Program-made: the position numbers and the translations under genes | Shown here: one piece after another, positions 2,541-43,545 of the stretch | Layout of the letters: each line of letters starts with the position of its first letter | How positions within the stretch are numbered: position 1 is the first letter of the stretch | Notes under the pieces: generated by a model | What the model saw: only the letters and a program-made list of their open reading frames with translations | The model's database searches: none | What the model was told of the DNA's origin: nothing | NCBI GenBank assembly: GCA_947588805.1 | Contig: CANPYR010000017.1 | Location: 1-44,623, forward strand | Direction: 5' to 3' | Length of the DNA: 44,623 nt | Origin: an uncultured Clostridia bacterium | Lineage (GTDB): Bacteria > Bacillota > Clostridia > Oscillospirales > Ruminococcaceae

Positions 2541-2543
2541 AGC

Positions 2544-9131: not shown

Positions 9132-9137
9132 GGAGTC

Positions 9138-9334: not shown

Positions 9335-9511
9335 GTGTTACGATTTTGTCTTGCAATTCGTTCTGTCAAAGCTGCGGATGGCAAAAAGCCGTATAATTAG
9401 CCGGGAAATTTCTGCCGCTGAATTTACTGCCGTACAGGAATAAAGCCGGGCTATCTAAACCTATAGCTTTCTGCTTCTGAATATCATTTCATGCTGACTC
9501 ACACCGCGGCA

Positions 9512-9597: not shown

Positions 9598-9634
9598 CCC
9601 CATAATATAATCACCGCCCCCAAAGGAGCCGCTT

Positions 9635-10750: not shown

Positions 10751-10767
10751 TGAGAACGGGGCCCCCT

Positions 10768-10870
10768 GTCAGAAGACAGAATTCAGAAGTCAGAGGTCAG
10801 AAGTTGTGACTATAGGTTTCTGCGCTTATAAGTGGGCGCGATGCAGCTCCATGTGCGGCTTTCGCTCCAA
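10768..10870. repeat. Low-complexity TCAGAAG tract and repeat modules
   Basis: 10768-10805 is built from variants of TCAGAAG (CAGAAGACAGA, CAGAAGTCAGAGGTCAGAAG). A CTATAGGTTTCTGC module follows (10811-10824). Similar tracts occur at 21631-21663, 4727-4783 and 19050-19075. No gene is seen between 10751 and 10956. Confidence 0.55.
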
Positions 10871-10956
10871 AACACTTTTCATATAGTCTTTCATTTCCTG
10901 CGCCCTGCCCTAATATTTAATCCCTACCCCACCCTAAAAGAAAAGGAGTCCCAATC

Positions 10957-11685
10957 ATGAACACCTTATCCTTAAACGGCGTAAATAAGCACTACGGCCC
11001 AAAGCACGCGCTTATCGACTTCGACTATACCTTCCGCGACGGAATCTACGGACTTTTAGGTCCTAACGGCGCGGGAAAATCCACGCTTATGAATATCATC
11101 ACCCAAAATATCCCGTTCGATAAGGACGGAGAGATAAGATGGAACGGTAAAAGCGTCTCGGTCTTAGGAAGCGCCTACCGCGAGATCATAGGCTTTATGC
11201 CGCAGCAGCAGGAGCTTTATCCAAGTTTTACCGCTAAAAGATTTTTGGGATATATAGCCGCGCTCAAAGGAATACCCGGCAAAAAAGCCCGGGACGAGAT
11301 CGAAAGAGTGCTTCGGCTCGTCGAGCTTTACGACCAGGCCGATCAGAAGCTGGGCGGGTTCTCGGGAGGTATGAAGCAGAGAGTTTTGATAGCCCAGACT
11401 CTTTTGGGAGATCCAAAGCTTTTGATACTTGACGAGCCGACGGCGGGTCTTGATCCTAAGCAGAGGGTTATAACAAGAAATATGATCTCGGGGCTTTCAA
11501 AGGATAAAATAGTGATAATTTCCACCCATATCGTCAGCGACATAGAAACTATTGCGGACAGGATACTGCTGATAAGGCAGGGGGAAATTATCGACGAGGG
11601 AACGGTTTCGGAGCTCTGCTCCAAGGTCGAGAACGGGAGAAAAAATCTTGAAAATCTGTATATGCAATATTACGGTGACGAGTGA
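10957..11685 (+). CDS. ABC transporter ATP-binding protein
   Basis: A 242-residue ATPase subunit. It has Walker A GPNGAGKST (about 36-44), Q-loop MPQQQELYP, signature FSGGMKQRV, Walker B LLILDEPTAGLDP and switch histidine STHIVSD, so it should be catalytically competent. The type is that of ABC-2 family transporters (multidrug, bacteriocin or lantibiotic-immunity like). AAAGGAG precedes the ATG. The stop TGA (11683-11685) overlaps the permease ATG, so the two subunits are coupled. Substrate unknown. Confidence 0.92.
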   Translation: MNTLSLNGVNKHYGPKHALIDFDYTFRDGIYGLLGPNGAGKSTLMNIITQNIPFDKDGEIRWNGKSVSVLGSAYREIIGFMPQQQELYPSFTAKRFLGYIAALKGIPGKKARDEIERVLRLVELYDQADQKLGGFSGGMKQRVLIAQTLLGDPKLLILDEPTAGLDPKQRVITRNMISGLSKDKIVIISTHIVSDIETIADRILLIRQGEIIDEGTVSELCSKVENGRKNLENLYMQYYGDE

Positions 11686-13790
11686 TGATAGTACGGGGAG
11701 AATTTTATAAGCTTATCAAAGACAGAACGTTTTTGTTCGTCGGCATATGCGTGATCGTTCTGAATATATATTCCGCGTTTTCTCAGAATTTCGGCATGCG
11801 CTGCGACGCTTCGGAGTATAAGGAATACTACGAGATAGCGAAGGGGAAAAGCTTCGAGGAAGCGTATGAATATTCCGAAGCAAGACGGGATAATATGTTC
11901 GGCGGCTGGGAACCGGGGATGTGGGAGGTCCGCTCGATGATGAACGCGGAGATAGAACAGCTCAAAGCGGTCGGGACCTATTATCAGTATCTTGAAGCGA
12001 TAGACGAGACCGCCGAGAGGATGGGGACGGTATCCATATTTGCGGATAAGGACAGCTTTTCATACAAAAACATAATGAAAACCCCGCCCGCATACGACAG
12101 GGTGAGAAGCATACATCCGACCTTCGAGCCGTCCTACGGAGTTCTTCTTGCCACCGACAATATTTTTTCCGATATTCTTTCGCTTTTCATGATCTTAAGC
12201 GCGGTCACGGCGGTGATATATAAAGAGCGGGAAGCGATGATGACGGGACTTTTAAAGCCGCTCAAATACGGAAGATACCGTCTTGCGCTCTCGAAAACTC
12301 TTGTGATATTCGCCGTCTGCGCCGCGGGATTCGGGATCATGTATTTTACAAATCTTCTTATCGGCTCCTCGCGCTTCGGGCTTGGGGATCTGAGCCGTCC
12401 CGTGCAGTCTCTGAAAGGATATCTCGGCTGTAATTTACCTATAACCGCAGGGCAGTTTATAATTTTCACATATGTAATCAAGGTCTTTGCGCTTTTTATC
12501 TGCGCGCTGATAGCGGAGCTTTTATTTATAAAGCTTAAAAACACCGCCTGCCTTATCGTTTTGGCTTTCATCGGCGCGGCCGAGACTGCTCTTTATGTAT
12601 TTATAAGCCCGACTTCGATGTTTTCGCCGCTCAAGACGCTAAATCTTGCGGCGTTTGTATGCGGAGAAAAAATCTTTAAGACATATCAGAATATCAATCT
12701 TTTCGGCGTTCCGATAAATCTTTTCCCGACGACGTTAATATTTATATCCCTGCTCTGCGTTCTCTTTTTCGTACTGTCTTTAAGGGCGTATGCGAAGATA
12801 AGCGTTTCGGAGATAAGAAAATCGAAGCGGGCGCTGATAAAAAGAAAAGCCCCGAAAAGGCTCTTCAGTTATTCTTTATACAAGCAGTTCATACTCCACC
12901 GCGGCGCGGTGATAATAATATTCGCGCTGGGGTTCAATCTCTATTCCCTGAACGGATTCATAAAATACTACAGCTCCTCCGACTCGTTCTATAACGCATA
13001 CACGCTCGAAGCGACTTCTCTTTCCTCTACGGGGGAATTATACGAATACCTGAAAAGCGAGGGGGAGGAATTGAGCGAAGAATTTAAGCTTATTTCTTCG
13101 GGAAAAGTTACCGATAACGGGGACTACTGGTCTAAGCGGCAGGGCTTCGAGAAGCTTTTGGGGCAGTATGAAAGGGCGCTTAAAATTAGTAGGACCGACG
13201 TGCAGGACATGATGTACTACACGACCGGGTGGGAAGAGATTTTCGGGATCACCCCTTCGGGAATTAAGCGCGACTATTCCCTTGGGCTTATAGCAATACT
13301 TTCGGTGTGCGCGGGAGTAGTGCCGATCGTCGCATACGACAACCGCGCGCGGCTCGGATATCTTTTATACACCACCAAATCCGGAAAAAGCAAGTATTAT
13401 CTTCACGCCGTTTTATCGTCGCTTATATATGCGTTTATAATAACCTTAGCGGTATATGTTCCCGCATATATAACCGTTTTATCAAGATACGGCGCTCCGG
13501 GTCTTACAGAGACGGCGAGGGTGATATCGGGGTACGGGAATCTTCCGAGCGCGAGCTGTCTTGAATATTTAATTATACTGACGGTCATAAGATATTTCTC
13601 GCTGTCGGCATTTTCCTGCCTTATGCTGTTCATATCGAGCCGTTCAAAAAGTCCCGCCGCGGCGACGGTAATGACGGTTTGCGCGTTCGCAGCGCCGATT
13701 GTAATTTATCTTGCCGGCGCGAATTTCATGCAGTGGCTTTGCTGGCCGATAAGCGGGAACCGTGAGGTGCTGTTAGGGATTAGAGGTTAG
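11685..13790 (+). CDS. ABC-2 type permease, duplicated architecture
   Basis: A 701-residue membrane subunit for the preceding ATPase. Each half opens with one membrane helix followed by a long non-membrane segment. In the first half the helix is TFLFVGICVIVLNIYSAF and the segment runs about 40-165; in the second the helix is VIIIFALGFNLYSL and the segment about 430-545. Clusters of membrane helices follow in each half, so the protein looks like two ABC-2 permease halves fused. The large extracytoplasmic segments could contact surface partners such as the upstream lipoproteins (inference). I chose ATG 11685, which shares its A with the upstream TGA, over the GTG at 11682. A strong terminator follows. 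Confidence 0.85.
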   Translation: MIVRGEFYKLIKDRTFLFVGICVIVLNIYSAFSQNFGMRCDASEYKEYYEIAKGKSFEEAYEYSEARRDNMFGGWEPGMWEVRSMMNAEIEQLKAVGTYYQYLEAIDETAERMGTVSIFADKDSFSYKNIMKTPPAYDRVRSIHPTFEPSYGVLLATDNIFSDILSLFMILSAVTAVIYKEREAMMTGLLKPLKYGRYRLALSKTLVIFAVCAAGFGIMYFTNLLIGSSRFGLGDLSRPVQSLKGYLGCNLPITAGQFIIFTYVIKVFALFICALIAELLFIKLKNTACLIVLAFIGAAETALYVFISPTSMFSPLKTLNLAAFVCGEKIFKTYQNINLFGVPINLFPTTLIFISLLCVLFFVLSLRAYAKISVSEIRKSKRALIKRKAPKRLFSYSLYKQFILHRGAVIIIFALGFNLYSLNGFIKYYSSSDSFYNAYTLEATSLSSTGELYEYLKSEGEELSEEFKLISSGKVTDNGDYWSKRQGFEKLLGQYERALKISRTDVQDMMYYTTGWEEIFGITPSGIKRDYSLGLIAILSVCAGVVPIVAYDNRARLGYLLYTTKSGKSKYYLHAVLSSLIYAFIITLAVYVPAYITVLSRYGAPGLTETARVISGYGNLPSASCLEYLIILTVIRYFSLSAFSCLMLFISSRSKSPAAATVMTVCAFAAPIVIYLAGANFMQWLCWPISGNREVLLGIRG

Positions 13791-24317: not shown

Positions 24318-24346
24318 TTGCCAATCGCTCCGGGATGTGATACAAT
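24318..24346 (+). promoter_or_regulatory. Promoter of the sugar-binding lipoprotein gene
   Basis: TTGCCA (24318-24323), 17 bases, TACAAT (24341-24346). The leader is about 60 bases. The preceding stretch 24150-24317 is AT-rich and holds no gene that I can see. Confidence 0.7.
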
Positions 24347-24413
24347 GATATGGCAAAATATCAAATTTGACGCTTGCCGTCTAAACGGCTGCGTCGAAAA
24401 TCAGGAGGTAAAT

Positions 24414-25853
24414 ATGAAACGCATTCTTGCTGTTTTTCTCGCGCTTCTGATGATCGTTACGGTCGTCGGCTGCGGAAAGAAAAAACGCCAGCCGATCCAG
24501 CTCACGCTCTCTACCGAGGACTCCGAAGCTATCCTCAGAGCCGCGGGCATCACACTTCCCGACGCTGAAAACGCGCCCGGCGCGGGCAGCCATGTGAAGT
24601 GGTATTCGTGGTACGATCCGCTGGAAAACTATAATGAAGACGAAATCGTAAACACCGGTAACTGGACCTTTAAAAACAAGTATAACGGCACCGTTGAGTG
24701 GGTCGAGTGCGTGTATGAGAACTACTACGACGACCTCGCAAACTACCTCACCGCCGGAACTCCTCCGGACGCGACTCAGGCTACAAGCGGCGTTATGGCG
24801 CTCTACCCTATGAACTGCATCAAGGGTATGATCCAGCCTGTGGATCCTTACGTCGATCTTGAGGACCCGCTCTGGGTGGGGATGAAGGAATTCGCGGATA
24901 AGTTTATGCTCGGCGGTCAGCACTACCATATGGTAACGGACGTAAGCTTTGACAACGTAGTCTGCTACAACCGCAGAGTCATGAACGAGTGGGGATTTGA
25001 CGATCCTGCGGATCTGTATTACAACGACGAGTGGACCTGGGATGTATTTTACGATATGTGCATGGACTTCTCGGACGGCGACGAGGACAGATACGCGCTT
25101 GACGGATACGCATATGCGGGCGGTCTGATGGAATCTACCGGTCAGCAGCTCTTCGGACTCAATGACGAAGGAATTTTTGTCGGAAACATCGACAGTCCCG
25201 AGATCGAGCGTTCGCAGCAGCTTGTATATGATCTTGTAAAGAACGGCTGCACATATCAGAACGGCGGCTGGGCGCTCCGCGGCGACGGCTTCGGAAACGG
25301 CATGTCTGACGGAAAGTGCCTGTTCTACATAATCGCGACCTGGGCGTTTACCGGAAGAGTCGAGGAGATCACTCCGATCTGGGGAGACGTAAGCCAGAAC
25401 GAGGTAATGTTTGCTCCGCTTCCGCGCGATCCTCAGGGCGACGGGATCTATTATCTGCACTCCGGCATCTCCGGCTACAGCATAATAAAGGGCTCCTTCA
25501 ATCCCGAGGGAGTAGCGCTGTTAGCTTCCTGCGAGAGATTCAAGATAATCGATCCGACGGTAGTAAACATCGACAAGAAGCAGCTCAGAGAGATCTATCT
25601 CTGGAACGACGAGATGCTCGATATGTACGACGAATGCTACGAGCTTGCGGCCGCTCACCCGATGATGAACCTTACAAATAATCTTCCAGATAACTTAGGA
25701 AACGCGATCGCAGGTCTTCAGAACGGAACTATCCATGGCGGCTCCGAGCCGAGCTCATGGGCGCAGCTCAAGGAGAAGTACGGCGAGCAGATCGAATATT
25801 ATATCGAGGAGCTGAACCAGACGATAGCGGACTTTAACGCTTCGCAGAGCTGA
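24414..25853 (+). CDS. ABC-type extracellular solute-binding lipoprotein
   Basis: A 479-residue family 1 solute-binding protein, the class that delivers oligosaccharides to ABC importers. The signal peptide ends in lipobox VVGC (C20). Typical features are WTFKNKYNGTVEWVE (first lobe), AGTPPDATQATSG, VCYNRRVMNEWGFDDPADLY and EWTWDVFYDMCMDFS, the last being a classic binding-protein helix; the C-terminal helix is EYYIEELNQTIADFN. ATG 24414 has an ideal AGGAGG; the in-frame upstream start at 24318 is in the promoter. No permease or ATPase genes follow, so it must pair with a transporter encoded elsewhere. The GH43 enzyme downstream suggests an arabinose/xylose-containing substrate (inference). 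Confidence 0.9.
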   Translation: MKRILAVFLALLMIVTVVGCGKKKRQPIQLTLSTEDSEAILRAAGITLPDAENAPGAGSHVKWYSWYDPLENYNEDEIVNTGNWTFKNKYNGTVEWVECVYENYYDDLANYLTAGTPPDATQATSGVMALYPMNCIKGMIQPVDPYVDLEDPLWVGMKEFADKFMLGGQHYHMVTDVSFDNVVCYNRRVMNEWGFDDPADLYYNDEWTWDVFYDMCMDFSDGDEDRYALDGYAYAGGLMESTGQQLFGLNDEGIFVGNIDSPEIERSQQLVYDLVKNGCTYQNGGWALRGDGFGNGMSDGKCLFYIIATWAFTGRVEEITPIWGDVSQNEVMFAPLPRDPQGDGIYYLHSGISGYSIIKGSFNPEGVALLASCERFKIIDPTVVNIDKKQLREIYLWNDEMLDMYDECYELAAAHPMMNLTNNLPDNLGNAIAGLQNGTIHGGSEPSSWAQLKEKYGEQIEYYIEELNQTIADFNASQS

Positions 25854-25888
25854 TTTTCGTATAAAATTCAGCGGCGGCTGCGAGAGGA

Positions 25889-25922
25889 GCGGGAATGCGG
25901 GCATCTGGGCCCGCGTTCCCGC
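25889..25922 (+). terminator. GC-rich hairpin after the binding-protein gene
   Basis: GCGGGAATGCGGGC (25889-25902) pairs with GCCCGCGTTCCCGC (25909-25922), 14 bp with one G-T, loop of six. No T run follows, so it may be an mRNA-stabilising 3' hairpin rather than an intrinsic terminator. The rest of 25923-26142 shows only degenerate repeat modules. Confidence 0.5.
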
Positions 25923-26142
25923 GAGCTGCCGGTCGGCAGCGGATCTCGTCGGCCGCTTGGATTTTGTGCAGGGGTAATTATGAGCGCGGGGGCGTTACGA
26001 TTAGTTTCGTGGCGGGTTGTGGGATTTAATCGCTGCTTTCTGCGGCTGAGATTCATTTTATGCGGGAGGAAAGCCGAGGGGTAAATGCAGCTACGGTTTC
26101 GTGCTTTTATCTTCACTTTCTGCGTAAACCCTGCTTGCATTT

Positions 26143-26392
26143 GCGGCGGCGAGATTCGCTACTTTCCTGCGGAAGCACTACCGACTGCGCCCCGCCAAAC
26201 TTGCCGGGCTTTGTCCGTGAGACAACCGAAGCGGTCGTTTAACAACGCGATTAAAACTCTTTGAGGACGAGCGGTCGGTCATTTATGACCGCGAAGTCCG
26301 AAAAGTAAGTTTTAACGCTTTGTTTTTGAGAGCAGTCGAACGGGAACAAAACCGGCAATGTTTTCCCGCCCTTCTCCGCTCCTCGCCGCCGC
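26143..26392. repeat. R1 palindromic repeat, longest form
   Basis: 250 bases. The left arm is GCGGCGGCGAGATTCGC (26143-26159); the right end is CTCGCCGCCGC (26382-26392). The insert contains the AACTTGCCGGGCTTTGT and GTCGAACGGGAACAAAACC modules plus an extra block with GCGATTAAAACTCTTTG, the latter shared with 14357-14373, and a short hairpin GCGGTCGGTCATTTATGACCGC (22 bases, 26269-26290 approximately, stem GGTCAT/ATGACC). Confidence 0.7.
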
Positions 26393-26486
26393 TGTCTTCG
26401 GAGCTTCATTTCATTCTGAATGAAGGCTCTGATTGATGATTTCGGGGCTTCTGCCGCTGCGCTAATATGCATGAGGGTGCAGAGTA

Positions 26487-26571
26487 GCGGCGGCGAGATT
26501 CGCTACTTTCCTGCGGAAGCACTACCGACTGCTCCCGCCCACCCGCCCTCTCCCGCGAATCTCGCCGCCGC
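26487..26571. repeat. R1 palindromic repeat, cleanest short copy
   Basis: 85 bases with a perfect 17 bp inverted repeat, GCGGCGGCGAGATTCGC (26487-26503) and GCGAATCTCGCCGCCGC (26555-26571). The loop carries TGCGGAAGCACTACCGACTG. Confidence 0.85.
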
Positions 26572-26593
26572 CCGGCTTCCTGCCCCCGAGAAC

Positions 26594-26632
26594 CCTGCGG
26601 CCTTTTGAGGAAAGGCCGGCGAAACCTTTGTA
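26594..26632 (-). repeat. R3 fragment
   Basis: On the plus strand CCTGCGGCCTTTTGAGG then AAAGGCCGGCGAAACCTTT, matching the first 40 bases of the R3 copies in inverted orientation. It directly follows an R1 copy and lies antisense to the neighbouring genes. Confidence 0.65.
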
Positions 26633-26710
26633 GTTCCCGCTCTTTCAGGGGTGGGCGGCTGGATCTAATTTTATCTTTAATAACACCAACAATCAAAGGA
26701 GGTCTTCAAA

Positions 26711-28441
26711 ATGATCTTTATCTCTTATTCAAGATACCCTGTCTCCGAAGCCGAATACGCTCCTCGTCTCGGTCTTAGCATGCACCTCGGCGTAAAAACC
26801 GATTCCGGCTTCTCTCCTCTTAATTTCAACTACGGCGTTCTCTTCGTAAAGGCTACCCAAAATCCCGAAAATAACGCCCTTAACCCTATGAGCATTAAAA
26901 AACCTTTCGTCCTCCCGACTGATGACGGTTTCAAAATCATCGCTATCCGTACTCTCGCTAACGGCGAAAATGACGAGAGCTCTAAGGGCTGCGCAGTCGT
27001 TTTTGAATCCCCCGACCTCGTTCACTATACCGAGCTCGGACTTCTGAAGCTTGCCGACGAATATCTTGACGACGTATCTCTCAAGGTCTGCCACTGCCAC
27101 GGCGGGCTTGTCGCGAAATACTCCGTCGGCGGCGTGGTCTATAGGCGCAGACTTTCGGATATAACTTCGCCTACCGATGATGTGAAACAGTGCGGAGATT
27201 TGGGAAAAGAATATACTGATTGTAATATAGAAGGCGCATATGACGCTGTGGAATTTGAAGTTCCGGAGGATAAAGCGGAATATCTTCTCAAAAAGCTCGG
27301 CGTTCTCAAGGCGACTGCGGTGCAGTATTCAAAGGAGGTCGAAAAGGATAAGCTTGACGAGTTCCGCGTGACCGTTCACTATTCCGACGGCTCTTCGCAT
27401 CAGAAGAGAGTCGACTGGAACGAGCCGGAAAACGGTGAGATCACAGGTAAAATTCATGTCGAGCACTACGATTTCCCGATAGCGATAAACCGTGCCGACC
27501 CTTGCGTGTACTTCTATAAGGGGGAGTATTACTTCATCGCGACAAACGACGCGGACGGAAACCGCTCGCTCTATGTTCGCCGCGCTAAGACCATCCCCGA
27601 GCTTGTAAACGCTCCCGAGAAGCTTATTCTTGACGCGTATACCTATCCGCACGTAGGCGGGCTTCTCTGGGCTCCGGAGTTCCACAACGTGAACGGCAAA
27701 GAATATATCTTCCACGCCTGCACCCCGAAGGAATTCGGGGACGAGGAGTCTCACGTGATGGTATTCAAGGAAGGCGGCGAGCTTGACGACAAGGACAGCT
27801 GGGAAGCGCCTAAGAAGGTCCTGAAAAAGGACGGCTCCCCGCTTTACGACAAGGGAATAACTCTTGACATGACGACTCTTGAGAGCGCGGGGCATATCTA
27901 TGTCGCCTGGAGCCAGCGCCAATTCAACCCGATAGACCTCGGCGCGTGGGTATATATAGCCGAGATAGACAAAAACGAGCCCTGGAAGCTTATAAGCGAC
28001 CCTGTGCTTTTAACGATGCCGGAATACGGCTGGCAGAACAACCACACTCTTGTCGACGAAGGACCGTTCATGTTAAAATCCGGCGGGATGATCTATCTGA
28101 CATTCAGCTCCGCTCTTGTAGATTCGACATACTGCGTGGGGCTTCTCACCGCAAAGGACGGCGCGGATCTGCTTGATCCCAAAAACTGGGTAAAATCTAA
28201 CTATCCGCTCCTTCATTCGCTCACGAAGCCCGGAGAATACGGCCCCGGGCATAACGCCTACGTGACCGACGAGTACGGCGACATTTGGAACACCTATCAC
28301 GCAAGGCCGGGGATAAACGCGCCGCGCTCGAGCGGTATCAGGCGCGTGCACATCGGATTTGATGGCGAGCCGGTTCTGAGCCTGCTTGAGGAGAACGAGC
28401 TCCCCGAGGGGATGGAGGAGATAAGTGTCAAGATCAAGTGA
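26711..28441 (+). CDS. Glycoside hydrolase family 43, cytoplasmic
   Basis: A 576-residue enzyme of the GH43 five-bladed propeller type (arabinofuranosidase or xylosidase activities in the family). The catalytic triad is readable: base D263 in NRADPCVYFYKGEYYF, pKa modulator D386 in ITLDMTT and acid E450 in LVDEGPFML. GPGHNAYV (H514) and WAPEFHNVNGKEYIF fit the propeller blades. The N-terminal 250 residues look like a partial GH43-like propeller plus a beta-sandwich domain (about 175-250), an addition to the minimal fold. There is no signal peptide, so it would cleave imported oligosaccharides. AAAGGAGG precedes the ATG. Substrate unproven. Confidence 0.88.
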   Translation: MIFISYSRYPVSEAEYAPRLGLSMHLGVKTDSGFSPLNFNYGVLFVKATQNPENNALNPMSIKKPFVLPTDDGFKIIAIRTLANGENDESSKGCAVVFESPDLVHYTELGLLKLADEYLDDVSLKVCHCHGGLVAKYSVGGVVYRRRLSDITSPTDDVKQCGDLGKEYTDCNIEGAYDAVEFEVPEDKAEYLLKKLGVLKATAVQYSKEVEKDKLDEFRVTVHYSDGSSHQKRVDWNEPENGEITGKIHVEHYDFPIAINRADPCVYFYKGEYYFIATNDADGNRSLYVRRAKTIPELVNAPEKLILDAYTYPHVGGLLWAPEFHNVNGKEYIFHACTPKEFGDEESHVMVFKEGGELDDKDSWEAPKKVLKKDGSPLYDKGITLDMTTLESAGHIYVAWSQRQFNPIDLGAWVYIAEIDKNEPWKLISDPVLLTMPEYGWQNNHTLVDEGPFMLKSGGMIYLTFSSALVDSTYCVGLLTAKDGADLLDPKNWVKSNYPLLHSLTKPGEYGPGHNAYVTDEYGDIWNTYHARPGINAPRSSGIRRVHIGFDGEPVLSLLEENELPEGMEEISVKIK

Positions 28442-28849: not shown

Positions 28850-28878
28850 TTGACTTTTTCATGAAAATATTGTATAGT
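28850..28878 (+). promoter_or_regulatory. Promoter of the EAL/repeat protein gene
   Basis: TTGACT (28850-28855), 17 bases, TATAGT (28873-28878). The leader to the ATG is about 90 bases. Confidence 0.82.
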
Positions 28879-28900: not shown

Positions 28901-28936
28901 AATTTCCGCGGGGGGGGGGTACTCTTCACGGGAATT
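28901..28936 (+). promoter_or_regulatory. Leader hairpin with a G10 tract in its loop
   Basis: Ten consecutive G (28910-28919) lie in the leader. AATTTCCG (28901-28908) and CGGGAATT (28929-28936) can pair, with one G-U in RNA, leaving the G run in the loop. Homopolymers of this length slip readily, so leader length may vary. Confidence 0.6.
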
Positions 28937-28975: not shown

Positions 28976-31576
28976 ATGGACGCCAGCATTAACGAAAAGT
29001 GGAACGAGCTTTTCGGGACCGAATGGTCAAAGATAATGGCTATCAGCCCGGAAATGGGCGGGTTTATGATAGACCATAAAAACCGAAAGGTCATAATGGA
29101 CGATAATGCGCTTAAGCTCGCGGAGATAGACTTTGTTCCGGACTACGACGCGATGATGGGTTTCCTTGAGATCCTCTCAGGCGATAATAAGAAATTTGCC
29201 ACCTTGGCGCCGATAGTGTTTTATCAGGACGAAGATTTTGCCGCCGGTATTTTGAGATGGCATTACGACTTCTCCGGAGAACAGGCTAAAAGCGTTGTTC
29301 CTATCGTTGAAAAACCGCAGTTTGCGTCGGCGGTCAATCAGGCTAAGGGGCGTTCGCTTCTTGCGCTTATCGAGTTTCATATGTCGGACCAGCGCGATAT
29401 CAACGACGCTCAGGTGTTCGGCTGCCTTGCGGCCATAAACGAAACGCTTCCGGCGGGGATCTCTATCTGCGCAAATTATCCCAAGTGCTTCTGGCTCTTT
29501 ATTCCGGAGTATTCCGGGGATTCCGCGGAGCTGATGGAAAGCCTTAAGCGCGTAGTCGAAACAAGCGGTCACGGCGCTTCTTTGGGAAGCACGGGCGAGG
29601 AGAGGTATGTCACCTTCAACGCCGGTATAGGAATGGAAGAGGGCGCGCCGGAACAGAGGATGGCTACCGCGGAGTTTGCGCTTTATGAAGCGAATCTCGT
29701 CGGAGGCGGCGCTATATTAAAGTATTCCGTTGAGCAGTTCGAGGAGAACAGAGCGGAATACGAGAAGATGTCGAGATTCTTAAAGCTTATAAACGAAAAT
29801 CTTTTCGTATATCATTTCCAGCCGATAGTTTCCGCGAAGGACGGCGAAATAGTAGCTTATGAAATGCTCATGCGCTCCACTCCCGATATAGGGATGTTCC
29901 CACTTGAGATTCTTGACTGCGCGGAACGCTCGGACAGACTTTACGATATCGAAAGGGCGACGATGAAGAACGCGCTTGCGATCATAGAGCAGCACCAGGA
30001 TACTTTTAAGAAGAAGAAGCTCTTCGTCAACTCTATCACCGCGCATATGCTTGACGATTCGGACTGGAACGAGCTTGTCGAGCGTTACGGCGAGATGATG
30101 GAGAAGATGGTGGTTGAGTTCACCGAACAGACCGAGATAAGCGACGATACCGTAGAGGGGATACGCGACAGGCTCGGGAAGTCTAAGATAAAGATAGCTA
30201 TAGACGACTTCGGAACAGGATATTCAAACACATCCAATTTAATTAAATACAGCCCGGACGTTGTAAAGATAGACCGCTCGCTTATCACAGGTATACATAC
30301 CAAGCCGACGATAAGAAAGCTTGTTTCGGGATTCATAGAGTTCATCCATGAAAACGGATATCAGGCTCTTGCGGAGGGCGTGGAGACGTATGAAGAGCTA
30401 AAGACGATGATACAGCTCGGCTCCGACCTCATTCAGGGCTACTATGTCTCAAGACCGAAGCCGATAATGCTTTACGAAGTCTCTGACAGTGTTTGCAGGG
30501 ATATCCAGACTCTTAATATTTACAGCACCACATCCGTGATACGTCCCTACCATCCCGCAGAGGGAGAAGAGGTAGATCTCGGAGTGATACTTGCGGACGG
30601 ATATAACTCGCTGTTTATAGAGAACGAGGTAACTACTCTTTGCGGACGTTCGGATATCAAGTTCGACATGGTAATAATGATAAAGTCGAACGCGAAGGTA
30701 AGGATAAACTTTGAAAACGTCAAGTTCAAGACCGAGAAGGATTCCCCGATAGTAGCTATCGGAGACGGCTCGGAGGTATCTCTTTGGTTCTACGGGGATA
30801 ACGAGCTCGACGGCAGAGGAATATACGTTCCGAGGACGGCTACGCTTAAGATGTACGGCGAAGGGAACGTAAACATAATTGCAAATAACGAGGACTGCTA
30901 CGGAATAGGCGTGAACCGCGACAACTCCCACGGAATGATCGTTTTGGCTACGAAGGGAACGGTAAATATTACCGCAAACGGAGATACCGCGGTCGGGATC
31001 GGAGGAGGAAAGAATGAAGCCTCGCAGCCGATACAGCTTCTCGGAGGAGAAGTGAACGTTTCGGTTTCGGGCGGCTCCTGCATAGGAATAGGTGCGGCCG
31101 ACGGAAACGCGATAGTAGACTTTTCAAACGTCGTGGTAAAGATGACGATGAGCTCTCCCGATAACGTCGCGGTAGGATCCTTCAACGGGAACACCGATAT
31201 AGAGCTAAAGAACTTCACTCTCGATACCGATCAGAACGGAATATCGGTAGTAGGCGTAGGCTCGGTAGAAAGCGGCTCCGGAAAGCTTATACTCACAAAC
31301 GGGATAATGAATTCAAAGATAAAGGGCAGAACGGTGAACTATATCGGAACGCGAGAAGGAAACCTGAGCTGTCATCTTAAGAAGAACTTCATTACATTCT
31401 ACTGCGAAAGCGGTTCGGTATCGGGGATCGGGGACATGTACGGCGAGGGCGACGTGATACTTGAGCAGAACCATCTCGATTTCGACATGAGGACCGGCGA
31501 GGGTCTTGCGTACGGAAGCAAGACCGGAACGGTGAAGTGCATAGATCCGGACGACGATATCAGGATAAACCCTTAG
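28976..31576 (+). CDS. c-di-GMP phosphodiesterase (degenerate GGDEF-EAL) with C-terminal beta-helix-like repeats
   Basis: An 866-residue soluble protein with no signal peptide or membrane segment. Residues 1-120 are PAS-like at best. Residues about 125-250 resemble a GGDEF fold without the GGDEF motif. Residues about 265-505 are an EAL domain with the catalytic set kept: E296 (motif reads YEML), N352, E381 (EFTE), D410-D411 in DDFGTGYSN, K431, E467 in AEGVE and Q487 in QGYY. It should therefore hydrolyse cyclic di-GMP to pGpG. From about 530 to 850 come glycine-rich strands. At least eight units of about 30 residues, starting near 641, 671, 701, 730, 756, 786, 814 and 841, share the pattern xxxGIG then GxVNVxxxGG, as in right-handed beta-helices. 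This tail on an EAL protein is unusual. The start has only a weak GAGAGAG. A bidirectional terminator follows. Confidence 0.85.
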   Translation: MDASINEKWNELFGTEWSKIMAISPEMGGFMIDHKNRKVIMDDNALKLAEIDFVPDYDAMMGFLEILSGDNKKFATLAPIVFYQDEDFAAGILRWHYDFSGEQAKSVVPIVEKPQFASAVNQAKGRSLLALIEFHMSDQRDINDAQVFGCLAAINETLPAGISICANYPKCFWLFIPEYSGDSAELMESLKRVVETSGHGASLGSTGEERYVTFNAGIGMEEGAPEQRMATAEFALYEANLVGGGAILKYSVEQFEENRAEYEKMSRFLKLINENLFVYHFQPIVSAKDGEIVAYEMLMRSTPDIGMFPLEILDCAERSDRLYDIERATMKNALAIIEQHQDTFKKKKLFVNSITAHMLDDSDWNELVERYGEMMEKMVVEFTEQTEISDDTVEGIRDRLGKSKIKIAIDDFGTGYSNTSNLIKYSPDVVKIDRSLITGIHTKPTIRKLVSGFIEFIHENGYQALAEGVETYEELKTMIQLGSDLIQGYYVSRPKPIMLYEVSDSVCRDIQTLNIYSTTSVIRPYHPAEGEEVDLGVILADGYNSLFIENEVTTLCGRSDIKFDMVIMIKSNAKVRINFENVKFKTEKDSPIVAIGDGSEVSLWFYGDNELDGRGIYVPRTATLKMYGEGNVNIIANNEDCYGIGVNRDNSHGMIVLATKGTVNITANGDTAVGIGGGKNEASQPIQLLGGEVNVSVSGGSCIGIGAADGNAIVDFSNVVVKMTMSSPDNVAVGSFNGNTDIELKNFTLDTDQNGISVVGVGSVESGSGKLILTNGIMNSKIKGRTVNYIGTREGNLSCHLKKNFITFYCESGSVSGIGDMYGEGDVILEQNHLDFDMRTGEGLAYGSKTGTVKCIDPDDDIRINP

Positions 31577-31603: not shown

Positions 31604-31630
31604 AAAAGCAGACGTATCCCGTCTGCTTTT
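31604..31630. terminator. Bidirectional terminator between convergent genes
   Basis: AAAAGCAGACG (31604-31614) and CGTCTGCTTTT (31620-31630), a perfect 11 bp stem with a 5-base loop. It serves the EAL gene (plus) and the sigma/anti-sigma operon (minus). A degenerate TTACTA tract follows at 31640-31695. Confidence 0.9.
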
Positions 31631-31715: not shown

Positions 31716-32894
31716 TCACTCCTTCAACCTTTCCCACTCCGTCAGGCTGCCTTTGGATTTGAAAGCAGATCTTACATCCCCCGTCTTCGCGTCAACAAAT
31801 GCCAAATACTCAAGCTTCGTCCCGTCCGCTGATTTTGAATACACTTCGCAGCTATAGTACTCCCCGATATCCTCAAGACCGGTCTCCGATACGCTCACGC
31901 CGTTAAAGGACTTTATACCGGATTCCGCTATCGGTACCTTCGTCATGCTGCATACAATCCAGTACCCCTCGTCGTAAGCGTTAATTCCGACCTTGGCGGC
32001 GACGGCTTTTTTGGCTTCGATTCTGCTTATATATTCCCTGCTGTCGGCGTGGACGTGGAGGTGATAGTCTTTATCATAGTCCTCTGTCTTGAGCGAGGAA
32101 TCCTCGGTCATCTCCTCGGCTCTGTACTTAACTATTTCACCGCTCACGGTATCGATAAGCGCGTGATAGATATACCCTCCGTGGCCGAGTGAAATATATA
32201 CCGTCGCGGGATCCGTTAAGTAGTTGATCTCGGAGCCGAGACTGTAGTTCTCAAAGCCGCAGCCGTCGTTTATGAGATAATCCAAAAGTATATCCGCGGC
32301 TTCGTCGGCGGTGAGATCTCCTAACGCCGAGTCCGGGTTCGGTTTATCGGAAATTTCAAACGGCAGTTCCGAATTTCTCTTTTCGCGTTCTTCTTTGACA
32401 TGCTCCTCCCAGCTCTCGTCGGCGTTTCTTTCGCAGCTCAATACCTTTTTGGTCGCAGCGTCCATTACAAGGAGGTAAGAATATCCCCCTAACTTCACGC
32501 TCACGTTATATATCGGTCTTAAGCCGGAAAAGCCGAAGTCGGCCTCGCTTTCCATCACCTCCCTGTCATATCCGAGGTCTGAAATGACCGCGCGCCCGAG
32601 ATCTTCTTTTTCACTTTGGTCCGCGTTCATAACGATATAGTCCTCCGCGGCAAGGATCACTTTCTCAGCGGTCTCGCTGTCCGCAAGGCTTGCGACTGCG
32701 GCCACGGCGCTTACCGACAGCGCAGCCAAAAGAATCGCCGCGGCGAGCGGAATTATAAATAGCTTCTTTTTATTCACTGTTCTCTCCTTTCGGCGGGGCG
32801 AAGATAATTCAAGCGCTTCCGAAATATATTCTTCGTCTATCTCTCCGAAGGCTTCTTTTAGGATCGGTATCCCGTCCGCGTTCTTATTTTTCAT
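31716..32894 (-). CDS. Single-pass membrane protein, probable anti-sigma factor
   Basis: A 392-residue protein: a short cytoplasmic N-terminus (1-43), one membrane helix (about 44-68, KLFIIPLAAAILLAALSVSAV) and a large outer part. The outer part has repeated PepSY-like units: VMDAATKKVLSCE, LIDTVSGEIVKYR and FVDAKTGDVRSAF, each a pair of strands after a helix. Its ATG overlaps the sigma factor stop by four bases (ATGA), so the two are translationally coupled, the usual arrangement for an ECF sigma factor and its membrane anti-sigma partner. No zinc-binding anti-sigma motif is visible, so the anti-sigma role is inferred from context and topology. Confidence 0.65.
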   Translation of the reverse strand: MKNKNADGIPILKEAFGEIDEEYISEALELSSPRRKERTVNKKKLFIIPLAAAILLAALSVSAVAAVASLADSETAEKVILAAEDYIVMNADQSEKEDLGRAVISDLGYDREVMESEADFGFSGLRPIYNVSVKLGGYSYLLVMDAATKKVLSCERNADESWEEHVKEEREKRNSELPFEISDKPNPDSALGDLTADEAADILLDYLINDGCGFENYSLGSEINYLTDPATVYISLGHGGYIYHALIDTVSGEIVKYRAEEMTEDSSLKTEDYDKDYHLHVHADSREYISRIEAKKAVAAKVGINAYDEGYWIVCSMTKVPIAESGIKSFNGVSVSETGLEDIGEYYSCEVYSKSADGTKLEYLAFVDAKTGDVRSAFKSKGSLTEWERLKE

Positions 32895-33448
32895 AACGTC
32901 TCGCCCTCCTGTTCCAAATATTTCCTGAGCCTGTCGCGCGTCCGCGAAAGCATGGATTTGATTTTGCTCTGTGAAAACCCCGTATCTTCGGATATCTCGG
33001 ATATCCGCTCGAACATAAAATATCTCTTTACGAAAACCGCTCGCGCAGTCGGATCCACGTCTTCCAAGAACCTGTCGATCGCGATCTTAAGATCGATCCT
33101 GCGAAACTCCTCCAAAGAGACCGAGTCCGGTATCATGAGCGCTATTTCGGAATCAAAGCTTACGGAAGAGTTCCGGGAGCGCTTTTTTGCAAGGTTGAAT
33201 TCAAGGCGTTTAAGAGAAAGATTTCTTACGATCCTGCAGGAGTATGCCCGAAGGTCGTCGGGGTTATTAGGCGGTATGGAATTCCAAAGAGCCAAAAGAG
33301 TATCGTTCACGCATTCCTCCGCGTCGGAAGCGGAGTCAAGTATATTAAGCGAAAGCTTTTTAAGCAGTCGGCAATACTTGCCGCATAGCTCCGCTACGGC
33401 CGATTGGTCGCGTTTAAAAAGCAGGTCAATGATCTCGGTATCTTCCAA
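32891..33448 (-). CDS. ECF-type RNA polymerase sigma factor
   Basis: A 185-residue sigma-70 family protein with region 2 (YCRLLKKLSLNILDSASDAEECVNDTLLALW and RIVRNLSLKR) and region 4 with a helix-turn-helix (ERISEISEDTGFSQSKIKSMLSRTRDRLRKYL), without regions 1 and 3, so ECF class. I chose TTG 33448, with AAAGGAGG 11 bases upstream; a longer TTG start at 33478 has no ribosome site of its own and contains that Shine-Dalgarno. It would direct transcription of an envelope-related regulon under control of the coupled membrane protein. No matching autoregulatory promoter could be recognised. Confidence 0.85.
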   Translation of the reverse strand: MEDTEIIDLLFKRDQSAVAELCGKYCRLLKKLSLNILDSASDAEECVNDTLLALWNSIPPNNPDDLRAYSCRIVRNLSLKRLEFNLAKKRSRNSSVSFDSEIALMIPDSVSLEEFRRIDLKIAIDRFLEDVDPTARAVFVKRYFMFERISEISEDTGFSQSKIKSMLSRTRDRLRKYLEQEGETL

Positions 33449-33530
33449 AGCGGACAGCGCCTCCTTTCCGGCTCTCAATTATTTAGTACGGATTTGTTCG
33501 CGCGAGGTCGCGGGGATTTTAGAGAATAGA

Positions 33531-33658
33531 GGGTTAGAGTGTTAGAAGATAGAGGGGAGAGCGGCGGCGGGATTTGCGGGGGATGGGCGGGAGGGCGGGC
33601 GCAGCCCGGTGCGCTCCGCTCTTAGAGAATAGAAAGTTAGATGATTAGAAGATAGAAT
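33531..33658. repeat. Low-complexity tracts flanking an inverted R1 fragment
   Basis: TTAGAG/TTAGAAGATAGA tracts at 33531-33554 and 33628-33658 surround GCGGCGGCGGGATTTGC (33561-33577), an R1 arm in inverted orientation, and a GC-rich stretch GCGCAGCCCGGTGCGC. No gene is present between 33479 and 33758. Confidence 0.6.
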
Positions 33659-33663
33659 TAAAA

Positions 33664-33694
33664 AGCAAAAAGCAGACGCTTTAAAAGCGTCCGC
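33664..33694 (-). terminator. Terminator of the exporter operon
   Basis: On the minus strand GCGGACGCTTT pairs with AAAGCGTCTGC (33672-33682 with 33684-33694, one G-U), followed by TTTTTGCTTTTT. Confidence 0.85.
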
Positions 33695-33758
33695 CCTCGC
33701 TATCCCTTTCGCCGCAGATCGGCAAAACCTGCAAGCTTAAACCGACATACGGCTCCTC

Positions 33759-35753
33759 TTACCTATCTACTAACTGTAAATCATAAAGCTTTTTATACAG
33801 CCCGTTTTGCTTTAAAAGCTCCTGATGCGACCCCTGCTCGTGTATCCTGCCGTGGTGCATTACGATTATCTTGTCCGCGTGCTGGATGGTAGAGAGCCTG
33901 TGAGCTACCATTATAGTCGTTCTGCCCTCCATAAGCTTCTCTAAAGCTTCGGTTATGAGCGTTTCGGTCTCGGTATCGATATTGGCGGTCGCTTCATCCA
34001 AAACAAGTATCGACGGTCTGTGAGCTAAGGTCCTTGCAAAACTTATAAGCTGGCGCTGACCTGCGGAAAGAGTCGAGCCGCGCTCGGTAACTGCTGAATC
34101 GTATCCGTCAGGCATCCTCTCAATAAACGTAGAAGCCCTTACGGTCTCGGCGGCGTCCCTTACGTCCTGGTCGGAGATCCCTTCGGTATCGAGCGAAATG
34201 TTTTTCTTTATATCCCCCGTGAATAGGAATACATCCTGTTGGACCTGTCCTATCGCTCCCCTTAAAACGTCGGTATCTACGCTCTTTATGTCCACCCCGT
34301 CTATAAGTATTTCTCCCTTTTGGACGTCGAAATATCTCCCGATAAGATTCAGGATCGAAGTTTTACCCGCGCCGGTCGCTCCGACGAACGCAACCTTCTC
34401 GCCCGGCGATATCGTAAAGCTCACGTCTTTAAGAATATAGTCGTCCTTTTCATACGCGAACCAGACGTTTTTGAATTCTATCCTTCCGCTCATCTTGGGC
34501 GCTATCGGGTTTTCGGGATTCACTATTTCCGGCTCAACGTCGAGCACCGAGAATACCTTCTCAGCGGAAGCAAGAGAGGACTGGAGCGTTCCGAACTGCT
34601 CGGCGAGCTCCTGGATAGGCTCGAAGAAGGAGCCTATGTAGGTAATGAAGATGAAGAGCGTTCCGAGCGAGATCTTTCCCTTGATTACAAAGCTCGCTCC
34701 GAAGCCGATAACTATTATCTTCGCGATTATCGAGACAAGAAAGATCGCGGGACGGAATATCGCGAAGATCATCATCTCCCGCCAGGACGCGTCGAAGAGC
34801 TCCTGAGATTTTTTCTCGAACTCCTTGTATTTTTCCTTCTCGCGCGCAAAGATCTGGATAAGCCTCATCCCGGAAATATGCTCCGAAAGGAATGTATTAA
34901 GCTCCGTTATCCTGTTTCTTGTGAGCTGGTACGCCTTTCTTGAAACGTATCTGAAATAGAATGTCAGCACCCCTACCACGGGAAGAAGCACGAAAGATAC
35001 CGCAGTCATCCCCGGGCTTCGCGACAGCATTATCACCGCGTAGCCGAAGATCATTATAACGTTTCTGAAAAGCCTTACAAGAATAGTAGTGAAAAGCTCG
35101 TTTATAGACTCCGTATCGTTAGAAACTCTCGTCACGAGCTTTCCCACGGGGGTGGTGTTAAAGAAGTTGAGCGAAAGGCTCTGGATGTGAGAGAATACCT
35201 GCTCGCGCATCGAATAGATTATATTCTGCCCCATCTTCTGTAAGATCCAGGTATCGGCCCAGTTGAGCGCGAATCCCGCCGCAAGGACCAAAAGATAGAT
35301 AAGCGCCGCGCGTATTATTCCCGAAAAGTCCGATTTTCTCAGGATCTTAAGCTGATCTTTGCCGAGCGGCGCGCCGTCGGAATTAGAGTCGATAAAGCTC
35401 TTTACGGTATTTTCGTCCGCGTCGGAAAGAAGCTCAGTCTCTTCTGCGGTGAGATCTTTCGCCATGTAATATTTATCCTCATACAGAAGTATCTGATAAT
35501 ATTTAGGCTCCTCCGACTTAAGCTCTTCCTCGGTAAATTCCCCGTATCTTCTTTCGAGCCGCACGCCGTCGTATACCGTCGTACCGAGCTCCGTGACCTC
35601 GTACGGCTGGTAATAGCCGTTTATATATCCGTCTATGGCGTCGCCGATTATGATCGGGCGGTAAAGCTCCACCGCGATTATAAAAAGAACAAGCACCGTC
35701 GCCGCAAGCATCGCCCATTTATGCGGTTTAAGATATCCCAAAAGTCTTTTCAC
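33759..35753 (-). CDS. ABC exporter half, BmrD-like with consensus ATPase site
   Basis: A 664-residue fused membrane-ATPase half-transporter. Between membrane helix 1 (about 15-37) and helix 2 (about 146-166) lies an extra outward domain of roughly 100 residues rich in acidic and tyrosine residues, as known in BmrD (YheH). The ATPase domain is canonical: Walker A GATGAGKT (458-465), signature LSAGQ (562-566), Walker B ILVLDEATANID with catalytic E587, and switch H618. It starts with GTG after GAGGAGG, 16 bases behind the partner gene. The pair should form a heterodimeric drug exporter; the substrate is inferred from the BmrCD likeness. Confidence 0.9.
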   Translation of the reverse strand: MKRLLGYLKPHKWAMLAATVLVLFIIAVELYRPIIIGDAIDGYINGYYQPYEVTELGTTVYDGVRLERRYGEFTEEELKSEEPKYYQILLYEDKYYMAKDLTAEETELLSDADENTVKSFIDSNSDGAPLGKDQLKILRKSDFSGIIRAALIYLLVLAAGFALNWADTWILQKMGQNIIYSMREQVFSHIQSLSLNFFNTTPVGKLVTRVSNDTESINELFTTILVRLFRNVIMIFGYAVIMLSRSPGMTAVSFVLLPVVGVLTFYFRYVSRKAYQLTRNRITELNTFLSEHISGMRLIQIFAREKEKYKEFEKKSQELFDASWREMMIFAIFRPAIFLVSIIAKIIVIGFGASFVIKGKISLGTLFIFITYIGSFFEPIQELAEQFGTLQSSLASAEKVFSVLDVEPEIVNPENPIAPKMSGRIEFKNVWFAYEKDDYILKDVSFTISPGEKVAFVGATGAGKTSILNLIGRYFDVQKGEILIDGVDIKSVDTDVLRGAIGQVQQDVFLFTGDIKKNISLDTEGISDQDVRDAAETVRASTFIERMPDGYDSAVTERGSTLSAGQRQLISFARTLAHRPSILVLDEATANIDTETETLITEALEKLMEGRTTIMVAHRLSTIQHADKIIVMHHGRIHEQGSHQELLKQNGLYKKLYDLQLVDR

Positions 35754-35769
35754 AGCTTTACCCCTCCTC

Positions 35770-37566
35770 TCAGCTTTCCTGCGGTCTTATGCCGGCGATA
35801 TCGCGGCGTATCGCCGCCTTCTGCTCGCCTATCGCGGCTTCGAGCTGCTGGCTCTCGAACATCTCCGCGTAAAGCCCGCCTTTTTTCATAAGCTCCGCGT
35901 GATTTCCTACCTCTGCGGCCTTTCCGTCCTCAAGAACCATTATTACGTCCGCGTCCTTTATCGTGGAAACTCTGTGCGCGATTATCACCGTGGTCTTTCC
36001 CGCGCGGTTTTTCTTAAGATTGGTGAGGATGTGTTCCTCGGTATCGGTATCTACCGCCGAAAGCGCGTCGTCAAGAATAAGTATCGGCGCGTTCTTCATA
36101 AGCGCCCTCGCAATAGACGAGCGCTGCTTCTGTCCTCCCGAAAGAGTGACTCCGCGCTCCCCGACTACCGTCTCGTACCCCTCCGGGAACTCGATTATAT
36201 TGTCGTGGATGCATGCGGCGCGGGAAGCTTCCACTATTCTTTCCATGCTCTTTTCATGGGTGCCGAATGCGATATTTGAAGCGAGCGTATCCGAAAACAG
36301 GAAGTTATCCTGCGGCACGTAAGCTATATTTTCTCTTAAGACGTTAAGGGGGATGTCGTTTATATCCGTCCCGTCAAGCTTGATCATCCCGGGCTTGGTG
36401 TTATAAAGGTGCAGAAGAAGATTCACAAGAGTAGATTTTCCGTTTCCGGTTCTTCCGATGATGGCGAGCGTGGTCCCCGCGGGGACTTCAAGACTCAGAT
36501 CCTTTATAGTCGGCTCGCTCGAACCCTTATGTATAAACGTCAGATCGTCAAAGGTGATCCTTCCCGAAAGGCTGTGGACCGGGGCCGGGACTTCGGGATC
36601 GGATATTTCCGTCTCGGAAGCGAATACATCCTGTATACGCCTTGCGGAAGCGAATCCCTGGGAGAACATATTTATCGCGTCGCCGCAGGCTATCATCGGC
36701 CACACGAGCATTCCGACGTACTGGTTGAAGGCCACGAATCGCCCGAGAGTTATATCTCCGACTATCGCGAGATATCCTCCGTATAAAAGCGTGATAAGGC
36801 TCGAAGAACCGATTATTACCGTCAGAAGAGGATTAACTACCGCCTGCCATTTTACGATGTCAAGGTTCTTGTCCATAGCGTTGCGGTTTGATTTTAAGAA
36901 TTCTTTAAGCTGCTGCCTTTCCCTGACGAAAGCTTTTATTACTCTTATGCCGGAAAAGCTCTCCTGGACGAAGTCGGTGAGGTCCGATACCGCTTCCTGG
37001 CGCTTTTTGTATTTTCCGTGCATGATCTTTCCGTAGTATATCTCCCCGATCATTATCACCGACATCGGGATAAGAACCAAAAGCGTGAGCTTTATGTTTA
37101 CGTATATCATCATCTGGACTATTACCATGAATCCCATCACGGTAGCGTCGAATATGCTTATTATCGCGGGACCTATCGACATTCTAATCGAGTTGAGGTC
37201 GGAGGTGAAGCGAGTCATGAGGTCTCCGGTCTTGTGGGAGTTATAGTACTCCACGTCCATCGTCTCAAGGTGCGCGAACATATCGTTTCTTATTTCCTTT
37301 TCGATGGTCCTTGCGGCTCCGAAGAGGAAGAATCTCCAGAGAAATCTTCCCGCCGCGAGGGTTATTCCCAGGACGAGTATCACAAGAAGTATTTTCATTA
37401 TCTCCGGCATTCCCATCGTCCTGTCGGTAAGACCGTCGGTTATACGGCCGGTAAGCTCGGGGATGAAGAGGTTTGCGTAGTCGACGACGAAGAGGGTTAT
37501 TATTCCGAAGACGTACTGCCACTTGTGCCGCGAGATATAGCTCATCAGAAACTTGAACGGTGACAC
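35770..37566 (-). CDS. ABC exporter half, BmrC-like with degenerate ATPase site
   Basis: A 598-residue half-transporter with six membrane helices and a C-terminal ATPase. Walker A is GRTGNGKST (371-379) and the signature is LSGGQ (475-479), but Walker B ends LILDD: aspartate D500 replaces the catalytic glutamate. The switch histidine (IIAHRVST) is kept. One degenerate and one consensus site is the hallmark of heterodimeric exporters such as BmrCD and TM287/288, and the first-encoded subunit is the degenerate one there too. GTG start with AAAGGAG. It is transcribed from 37658 with the BmrD-like gene as one operon, divergent from malQ. Confidence 0.92.
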   Translation of the reverse strand: MSPFKFLMSYISRHKWQYVFGIITLFVVDYANLFIPELTGRITDGLTDRTMGMPEIMKILLVILVLGITLAAGRFLWRFFLFGAARTIEKEIRNDMFAHLETMDVEYYNSHKTGDLMTRFTSDLNSIRMSIGPAIISIFDATVMGFMVIVQMMIYVNIKLTLLVLIPMSVIMIGEIYYGKIMHGKYKKRQEAVSDLTDFVQESFSGIRVIKAFVRERQQLKEFLKSNRNAMDKNLDIVKWQAVVNPLLTVIIGSSSLITLLYGGYLAIVGDITLGRFVAFNQYVGMLVWPMIACGDAINMFSQGFASARRIQDVFASETEISDPEVPAPVHSLSGRITFDDLTFIHKGSSEPTIKDLSLEVPAGTTLAIIGRTGNGKSTLVNLLLHLYNTKPGMIKLDGTDINDIPLNVLRENIAYVPQDNFLFSDTLASNIAFGTHEKSMERIVEASRAACIHDNIIEFPEGYETVVGERGVTLSGGQKQRSSIARALMKNAPILILDDALSAVDTDTEEHILTNLKKNRAGKTTVIIAHRVSTIKDADVIMVLEDGKAAEVGNHAELMKKGGLYAEMFESQQLEAAIGEQKAAIRRDIAGIRPQES

Positions 37567-43446: not shown

Positions 43447-43545
43447 AAAGTCTTGTTTACCCATCGATCAGACTTTGGCACCTTGCATTGCAGGTTGCCG
43501 GACGGTCATAGGGTCTGTCCCTCGCGTCACTCTTTATGGTAATTG
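43447..43545 (-). promoter_or_regulatory. SAM-clan riboswitch (S-box / SAM-I or SAM-I/IV type)
   Basis: Read on the minus strand, the aptamer core is AAAGAGTGACGCGAGGGACA then GACCCTATGACCGTC, CCGGCAACC (43493-43501), a short TGCAATGCA stem and GGTGCCAAAGTCTGA. This matches the conserved AGAG...GAGGGACxGxCCC, GGCAACC and GGTGCCAA blocks of S-box RNAs. P2 pairs GACG with CGTC; P3 pairs ACCTGCA with TGCAAGGT. A closing P1 can form between ACCAT (about 43540-43536) and ATGGGT (43464-43459). Forming P1 with SAM bound would free the terminator arm, so the switch is predicted to turn expression off when SAM is high. The downstream gene is the shortened kinase-like gene, not a methionine gene. Confidence 0.75.

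Follow-up and report, generated by a model that had tools for sequence, protein, structure and literature searches.

The EAL-solenoid gene and its surroundings

The window analyzed here is a stretch of 44,623 nucleotides from an uncultured Clostridia bacterium. At positions 28976 to 31576 of its forward strand lies a single open frame of 866 residues, as the original prediction had stated, whose start codon is consistent with the starts of its relatives in an alignment (A1) inspected by eye. The following features were assigned to the gene and its immediate flanks:

28850..28878, + strand: promoter-like site TTGACT-17-TATAGT, 5′ of the gene (consensus match only)
28976..31576, + strand: gene of the EAL-solenoid protein, single open frame, 866 residues
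29018..29305, + strand: PAS-like segment, about residues 15-110, from alignment of the model to PA0861 (5xgd)
29312..29746, + strand: GGDEF fold without the GGDEF motif, about residues 113-257
29777..30466, + strand: EAL c-di-GMP phosphodiesterase domain, residues 268-497, catalytic set intact
30485..30526, + strand: helix closing the EAL domain, residues 504-517 (DSSP of the model); the solenoid part starts after it
30566..31573, + strand: C-terminal repeat domain, about residues 531-866, units of 27-32 residues, modelled as a β-solenoid
31604..31630, + strand: terminator-like hairpin of 11 pairs, directly 3′ of the stop codon

The gene is apparently transcribed alone. Seven promoter-like sites were found in the scanned region, compared to a mean of 3.6 in shuffled sequences. 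Terminator-like sites are no commoner than in shuffles (three versus a mean of 3.6), so that the hairpin at 31604..31630 is backed by its position only. A run of ten G residues (28910-28919) separates the promoter-like site from the start codon. No RNA element was found near the gene at the Rfam gathering score; the only match in the window at this score is a SAM riboswitch at 43458-43542 on the reverse strand (49.8 bits).

Positions 24318-28441, 5′ of the gene, encode an extracellular solute-binding protein as well as a GH43 enzyme that weakly matches Big_4. On the reverse strand, at 31716-37566, a PepSY protein adjoins an ECF-type σ factor, followed by two ABC exporter-type proteins. Elsewhere in the window, an ABC ATPase (10957-11685) is located at 8034-13790 amid three ORFs (365, 371, and 702 residues) that lack any Pfam match at E≤0.001. 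A MobA/VirD2-like relaxase and, after it, a large serine recombinase with DUF4368 (682-4242) appear to belong to a mobilisable element.

Domain architecture of the encoded protein

Pfam places an EAL domain (PF00563) at residues 270-494 (E 2.2e-49, 168.4 bits versus a cut-off of 31.3). The only other Pfam match of the protein at E≤1 is a sub-threshold one to SH3_15, and the NCBIfam matches at E≤0.1 are all to models of EAL-type phosphodiesterases, cyclases, or receptors. All catalytic residues listed in the original prediction are present. E381, E384, D410, D411, K431, E467, E470, and Q487 are identical in 77/77 rows of an alignment of relatives, and E296 and N352 in the 75/75 rows that are ungapped there. 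The metal-binding and catalytic roles of these residues are assigned from RocR. Given that the set is complete and invariant wherever it is covered, phosphodiesterase activity would be expected. Judged by its sequence, the enzymatic part is an EAL phosphodiesterase of the usual kind, and the protein is probably a soluble, active c-di-GMP phosphodiesterase.

The region in front of the EAL domain had been described as GGDEF-like without its motif. The GG[DE]EF motif is indeed absent, and PF00990 does not match the protein at E≤1; alignment of the structural model to PAS-GGDEF-EAL and GGDEF-EAL crystal structures suggests that the fold itself is present. As an addition to the earlier reading, a PAS-like segment probably precedes this dead GGDEF domain in the model: 5xgd aligns from model residue 10 onward (Foldseek E 4.1e-20, multi-domain rmsd ∼22), with no Pfam PAS match in this segment.

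The C-terminal repeat tail, predicted at about 350 residues, was recovered with a length of ∼335-350 residues and units of 27-32 residues, which were cut by eye. Self-similarity of the repeats peaks at a lag of 28, a value reached by 0/1000 shuffles across lags 10-59, which rules out chance repeats. An alignment of 39 diverse sequences of the domain has 12 invariant columns, each occupied by glycine, and the last six of these are spaced 28-30 positions apart. Structure prediction had been proposed as a check on the repeats. An AlphaFold2 model of the whole protein based on a 77-row alignment (mean pLDDT 87.6, pTM 0.48) shows a short helix at 535-540 that opens the repeat domain and is the last helix of the model; from residue 541 to the end there are strands and no assigned helix, with a pLDDT of 86-98 in ten-residue blocks, mostly >90. 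At a pTM of 0.48, the modelled placement of the domains relative to each other is uncertain.

Searches with the whole model (Foldseek, VIA-align 2) listed only EAL and GGDEF-EAL chains. The C-terminal part of the protein has no Pfam match at E≤1, and its profile has no credible sequence match in the PDB (best E 0.49). Divergence is faster in the solenoid than in the enzyme, with identities to the window protein of 18-62% compared to 42-80% for the EAL domain. Its net charge is acidic in 114/114 sequences (-3 to -23), and aromatic residues make up 5%.

Distribution of the C-terminal domain

Using the last 356 residues as query and a threshold of E≤0.001, we found the C-terminal domain in 96/396 sampled genomes of the same family, representing 23/126 genera. 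A few of the weakest of these 96 matches (for example G066, E 1.4e-5) may instead belong to exported repeats outside the EAL-solenoid family. Among the eight same-genus genomes listed, which include that of the window, three have no match, and the window's own genome (86% complete) contains no second match at E≤10. In a class-wide sample the domain was matched in 18/391 genomes and is present in several families. Thirteen of these 18 match strongly (E 1.4e-57 or better; 15 loci), and the five weakly matching genomes carry different, other proteins.

A scan of named genomes returned no match with the single protein as query, and alignment A2 was too variable; alignment A3 revealed 76 loci, mostly from gut Clostridia. 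These include rabbit (“Lapin”) Clostridia, Oscillospiraceae, and Ruminococcus, among them R. bicirculans 80/3, as well as Lachnospiraceae and Eubacterium from the gut of deer, goat, sheep, and buffalo. One locus labelled Bacteroides (L081) groups with Clostridia in the tree and probably stems from a mislabelled bin. An artefact of a single contig is ruled out by 20 further copies of the gene that align over their full length and by the 76 loci. The order EAL-then-solenoid, for which a domain-architecture search had been suggested with the original prediction, recurs at these loci.

The solenoid occurs together with an EAL domain

We pooled 117 proteins, all of them selected for their solenoid: the 76 loci, 40 stretches obtained by a second route, and the window, with some proteins duplicated between the routes and search loci L001-L032 kept outside the count. 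The EAL domain directly precedes the solenoid in 116/117 proteins, the remaining one ending at a contig end, and in 115/116 the distance from the end of the EAL domain to the start of the solenoid is 20-29 residues. A later check found the EAL domain before the solenoid in 44/44 more loci, many of which repeat the 117: 29 from the family search (L004-L032, both domains in 29/29) and the 15 strong class-level matches (15/15). Since the relatives were found by their solenoid, it is true by construction that they always have one; only the observation that the solenoid always occurs with an EAL domain is informative.

Identities of the EAL domain and the solenoid are correlated (r 0.93 over 2926 pairs, relatedness ignored). 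A search seeded with the EAL domain gave 35 matches including the window, and of the 30 loci read, 19 carry the solenoid and 11 lack it. All 19 with the solenoid score at least 257 bits and 10/11 without it score at most 232 bits, on a family EAL model that was built from solenoid-bearing rows. Two relatives count against complete fixity of the pairing. In L198 the EAL domain reaches 295 bits to the family EAL model and the frame ends 20 residues after it, without a solenoid; at G035:C57 a near EAL domain (E 2.1e-59) has no solenoid match in the search of same-family genomes.

The N-terminal parts vary. By our own profiles, which give rough labels, 48 of the 117 proteins are of the window type, 43 are LacI-like, 10 are of other types, eight are short, seven are cut at the 5′ end, and one is cut before the EAL domain. 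In a Pfam scan of 41 N-terminally different named relatives (E≤0.01), LacI-like domains were found in 34, GNAT in one, and GGDEF in one; a GNAT acetyltransferase domain is located ahead of EAL and solenoid at L106:1774-4125. On a tree of the EAL domain only (100 rows, identical and 5′-cut rows dropped), the N-terminal label changes 12 times, the minimum possible being four, and well-supported branches alone force three to five changes per label. The simplest history that we infer from these sequences would be that the fusion arose once, within a single EAL lineage, and that N-terminal modules were exchanged afterwards.

Relation to exported repeats and localization

The repeats had been assigned to a class that is normally exported. 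Seven stretches from the five weakly matching class-level genomes, three of them from one genome, carry exported-type ORFs of 789-2474 residues. Leader-like N-termini are visible by eye in 5/7, the other two being without a clear beginning. We compared an alignment of the C-terminal domain (A6, 39 rows) with six segments from three of the exported-type ORFs (A7). Using hhalign, the two profiles match with 98.9% and E 3e-17 over 159 columns. The A6 model matches 7/7 of these ORFs in unfiltered mode (domain E 1.8e-6 or better; a small ORF set) and 2/7 with default filters. Beta_helix_3 (PF18889) is present in both exported-type ORFs scanned with Pfam (L179, 70.5 bits; L181, 105 bits) and has no match in the window protein at E≤1. 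PMC8286594 lists PF18889 with the stalk domains of adhesins, and the A6-A7 match therefore relates the solenoid to an exported repeat class of this kind. The direction of this relationship would be from exported to cytoplasmic. In a PDB sequence search with an exported relative, the sole match was 4peu/4phb (E 0.045), a link not reproduced with profile A7; we take this entry to be the polysaccharide-binding protein Cthe_2159.

As predicted, the window protein shows no obvious signal peptide or membrane segment: its highest 19-residue hydropathy (1.45) is located at residue 147, away from the N-terminus, on the Kyte-Doolittle scale only, which is a crude measure. Hydropathy of at least 1.9 is reached by 6/117 relatives. 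Membrane-anchored forms probably exist among them, since L040, L041, and L042, a class of ∼1010 residues (1004-1022), have a strongly hydrophobic segment near the N-terminus and appear to be truly anchored. The remaining three may be overlong start calls.

Genomic and cellular context

Using the window protein as query, at least one further EAL protein with a marginal GGDEF match was found in its own genome (86% complete), which also encodes two further GGDEF proteins and a response regulator with HD_5. No PilZ domain was found there at E≤1.

Among the relatives, the GG[DE]EF motif occurs in 10/126 adjacent ORFs, 2/115 ORFs at position 2, and 4/259 at positions 3 to 5. It is thus commoner next door (10/126 versus 4/259, Fisher p 0.003; a post hoc comparison that ignores relatedness). 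The window gene has no such neighbor. Five neighbors were scanned with Pfam: three are LacI-like-GGDEF proteins (L094, L112, L134), one has GGDEF only (L111), and one is LacI-like only (L131). The LacI-like genes lie, for example, at L131:4109-5842 and, fused to GGDEF, at L134:9206-11122 and L094:9236-11569. Such neighbors possibly form sugar-sensing cyclase/phosphodiesterase pairs with the EAL-solenoid genes.

Of the genes within five positions of the window gene, the only candidate operon partners with counterparts at the 76 loci are the ubiquitous ABC class and two genes that L075 shares. L075 is the only one of the 76 loci, many of them on short contigs, that shares the solute-binding and GH43 genes of the window within this distance. 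An alpha-amylase-family enzyme and a 4-alpha-glucanotransferase are encoded in the window as well.

A model for the function of the solenoid

Based on these observations, we propose at about even odds (probability ∼0.5) that the N-terminus senses, the EAL domain is active, and the solenoid serves as a rigid arm for docking or assembly. The N-terminal module would take in a signal and set the activity of the EAL domain. The solenoid, as a rigid arm fixed to the last EAL helix, would link the enzyme either to a partner or to further copies of itself, as a dimer or higher assembly, and c-di-GMP would then be degraded at one place or in the assembled state only. In favor of this model are the invariant catalytic residues, the constant association of the solenoid with the EAL domain at a nearly fixed distance, and the swapping of N-terminal modules. 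Sensor-like domains sit elsewhere in the protein (LacI-like in 34/41). The correlation of EAL and solenoid identities (r 0.93) and the split in the EAL-seeded search also count for it, as do the solenoid pLDDT of mostly >90 and its relation to exported repeats, listed as adhesin stalks in PMC8286594. Against it, the faster divergence of the solenoid could equally mean ligand specificity. The uncertain relative placement of the domains in the model and the near EAL relatives without a solenoid match (L198, G035:C57) weigh against it as well. Its acidic charge and 5% aromatics fit a protein arm and are compatible with a glycan or ion ligand, too. The original prediction had left the choice between an intracellular scaffold and a polymer/carbohydrate sensor: the scaffold is in our view the likelier half, and the sensor half is unsupported so far, sensor-like modules being N-terminal and variable.

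A solenoid that itself acts as the input domain, binding an intracellular polymer or sugar such as a storage glucan and switching the EAL domain, appears doubtful to us. Exported β-helix proteins are often linked to glycans, and the one PDB sequence match of the exported relative (4peu/4phb, E 0.045) points the same way, but was not reproduced with profile A7. Sugar signaling is suggested by the LacI-like domains of many relatives and by LacI-like-GGDEF proteins in three of the five scanned neighbors; yet in many relatives the N-terminus already holds a sugar-sensor-like domain. The GH43, alpha-amylase-family, and 4-alpha-glucanotransferase genes of the window fit a carbohydrate ligand, whereas such neighbors are not conserved (GH43 within five genes in 1/76 loci, many contigs being short).

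Cytoplasmic β-helix polymers such as bactofilins exist, and the long regular strands at high pLDDT together with the fixed joint to the EAL domain would suit a domain that stacks or polymerises in a similar way into phosphodiesterase filaments or patches. We consider this unlikely, as Pfam gives no bactofilin match in the window protein at E≤1 and the short helix at 535-540 could cap that end of the solenoid. The solenoid might also be a passive tail, which a gene fusion added and which persists as a stabiliser without regulatory role, as the near relative L198 without a solenoid and the fast divergence would allow. This we regard as improbable in view of its retention at 18-62% identity with 12 invariant glycines in 39 rows, and of its presence across several families in the class sample alongside repeated changes at the N-terminus. 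A broader view, in which a cytoplasmic β-solenoid derived from exported adhesin or glycan-binding repeats serves as a standing control module of c-di-GMP breakdown in gut Clostridia that reads an intracellular polymer (storage glucan, for example) or builds phosphodiesterase assemblies, is tentative and in our judgment rather unlikely.

To our knowledge, little work has addressed c-di-GMP signaling in gut Ruminococcaceae and Lachnospiraceae, and we know of few accessory domains C-terminal to EAL. The solenoid is a recurrent, unnamed domain on the output side of the EAL domain; in many relatives the input side is a LacI-like binding domain, or a LacI-like diguanylate cyclase is encoded next door. 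This offers a testable path by which the sugar status of the cell could reach c-di-GMP. It also provides an example of an exported-type repeat fold employed in the cytoplasm. If true, a standing solenoid control module would be a kind of c-di-GMP control undescribed in the literature searched.

Comparison with known systems

Among the papers listed in our literature searches, none describes the EAL-solenoid architecture, judged by titles and the beginnings of abstracts. The main text of the 2022 census of c-di-GMP sensors, whose domain tables are in supplements, contains neither “β-helix” nor “solenoid” (PMC8846402). The suggestion of a new signaling architecture stands to the extent that neither Pfam nor the literature covered, partly at abstract level, provides a name for it, with the amendment that it is a recurrent family and not one odd protein. 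The combination of EAL with the modelled β-solenoid, which has no Pfam domain in this protein, appears undescribed within that literature.

The first three Foldseek rows belong to PA0861 (5xgb/5xgd/5xge), in which a PAS-like domain, the GGDEF fold, and EAL follow in the same order. 5xgd aligns over model residues 10-498, and PA0861 lacks a C-terminal solenoid. The first ∼500 residues also align with the GGDEF-EAL structure PA0575, again with a large multi-domain rmsd. PA0861 is presumably the membrane-anchored RbdA, whereas the window protein appears not to be anchored. In YkuI of Bacillus subtilis (2bas, 2w27), YkuI_C is no repeat solenoid; according to PMC8846402, YkuI_C belongs to the CACHE-like clan and is considered intracellular.

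The Cthe_2159 family (PF14262; 4peu/4phb) is weakly linked through the exported relative (E 0.045). PF14262 has no match in the window protein at E≤1 and among the relatives scanned matches only L051, with 10.1 bits against a cut-off of 25.8; we assume Cthe_2159 to be a secreted β-helix. The exported Beta_helix_3 (PF18889) proteins are long, leader-like in 5/7, and without EAL in the two scanned with Pfam, unlike the window protein, and share with its solenoid the strands and the VP and GIG turns.
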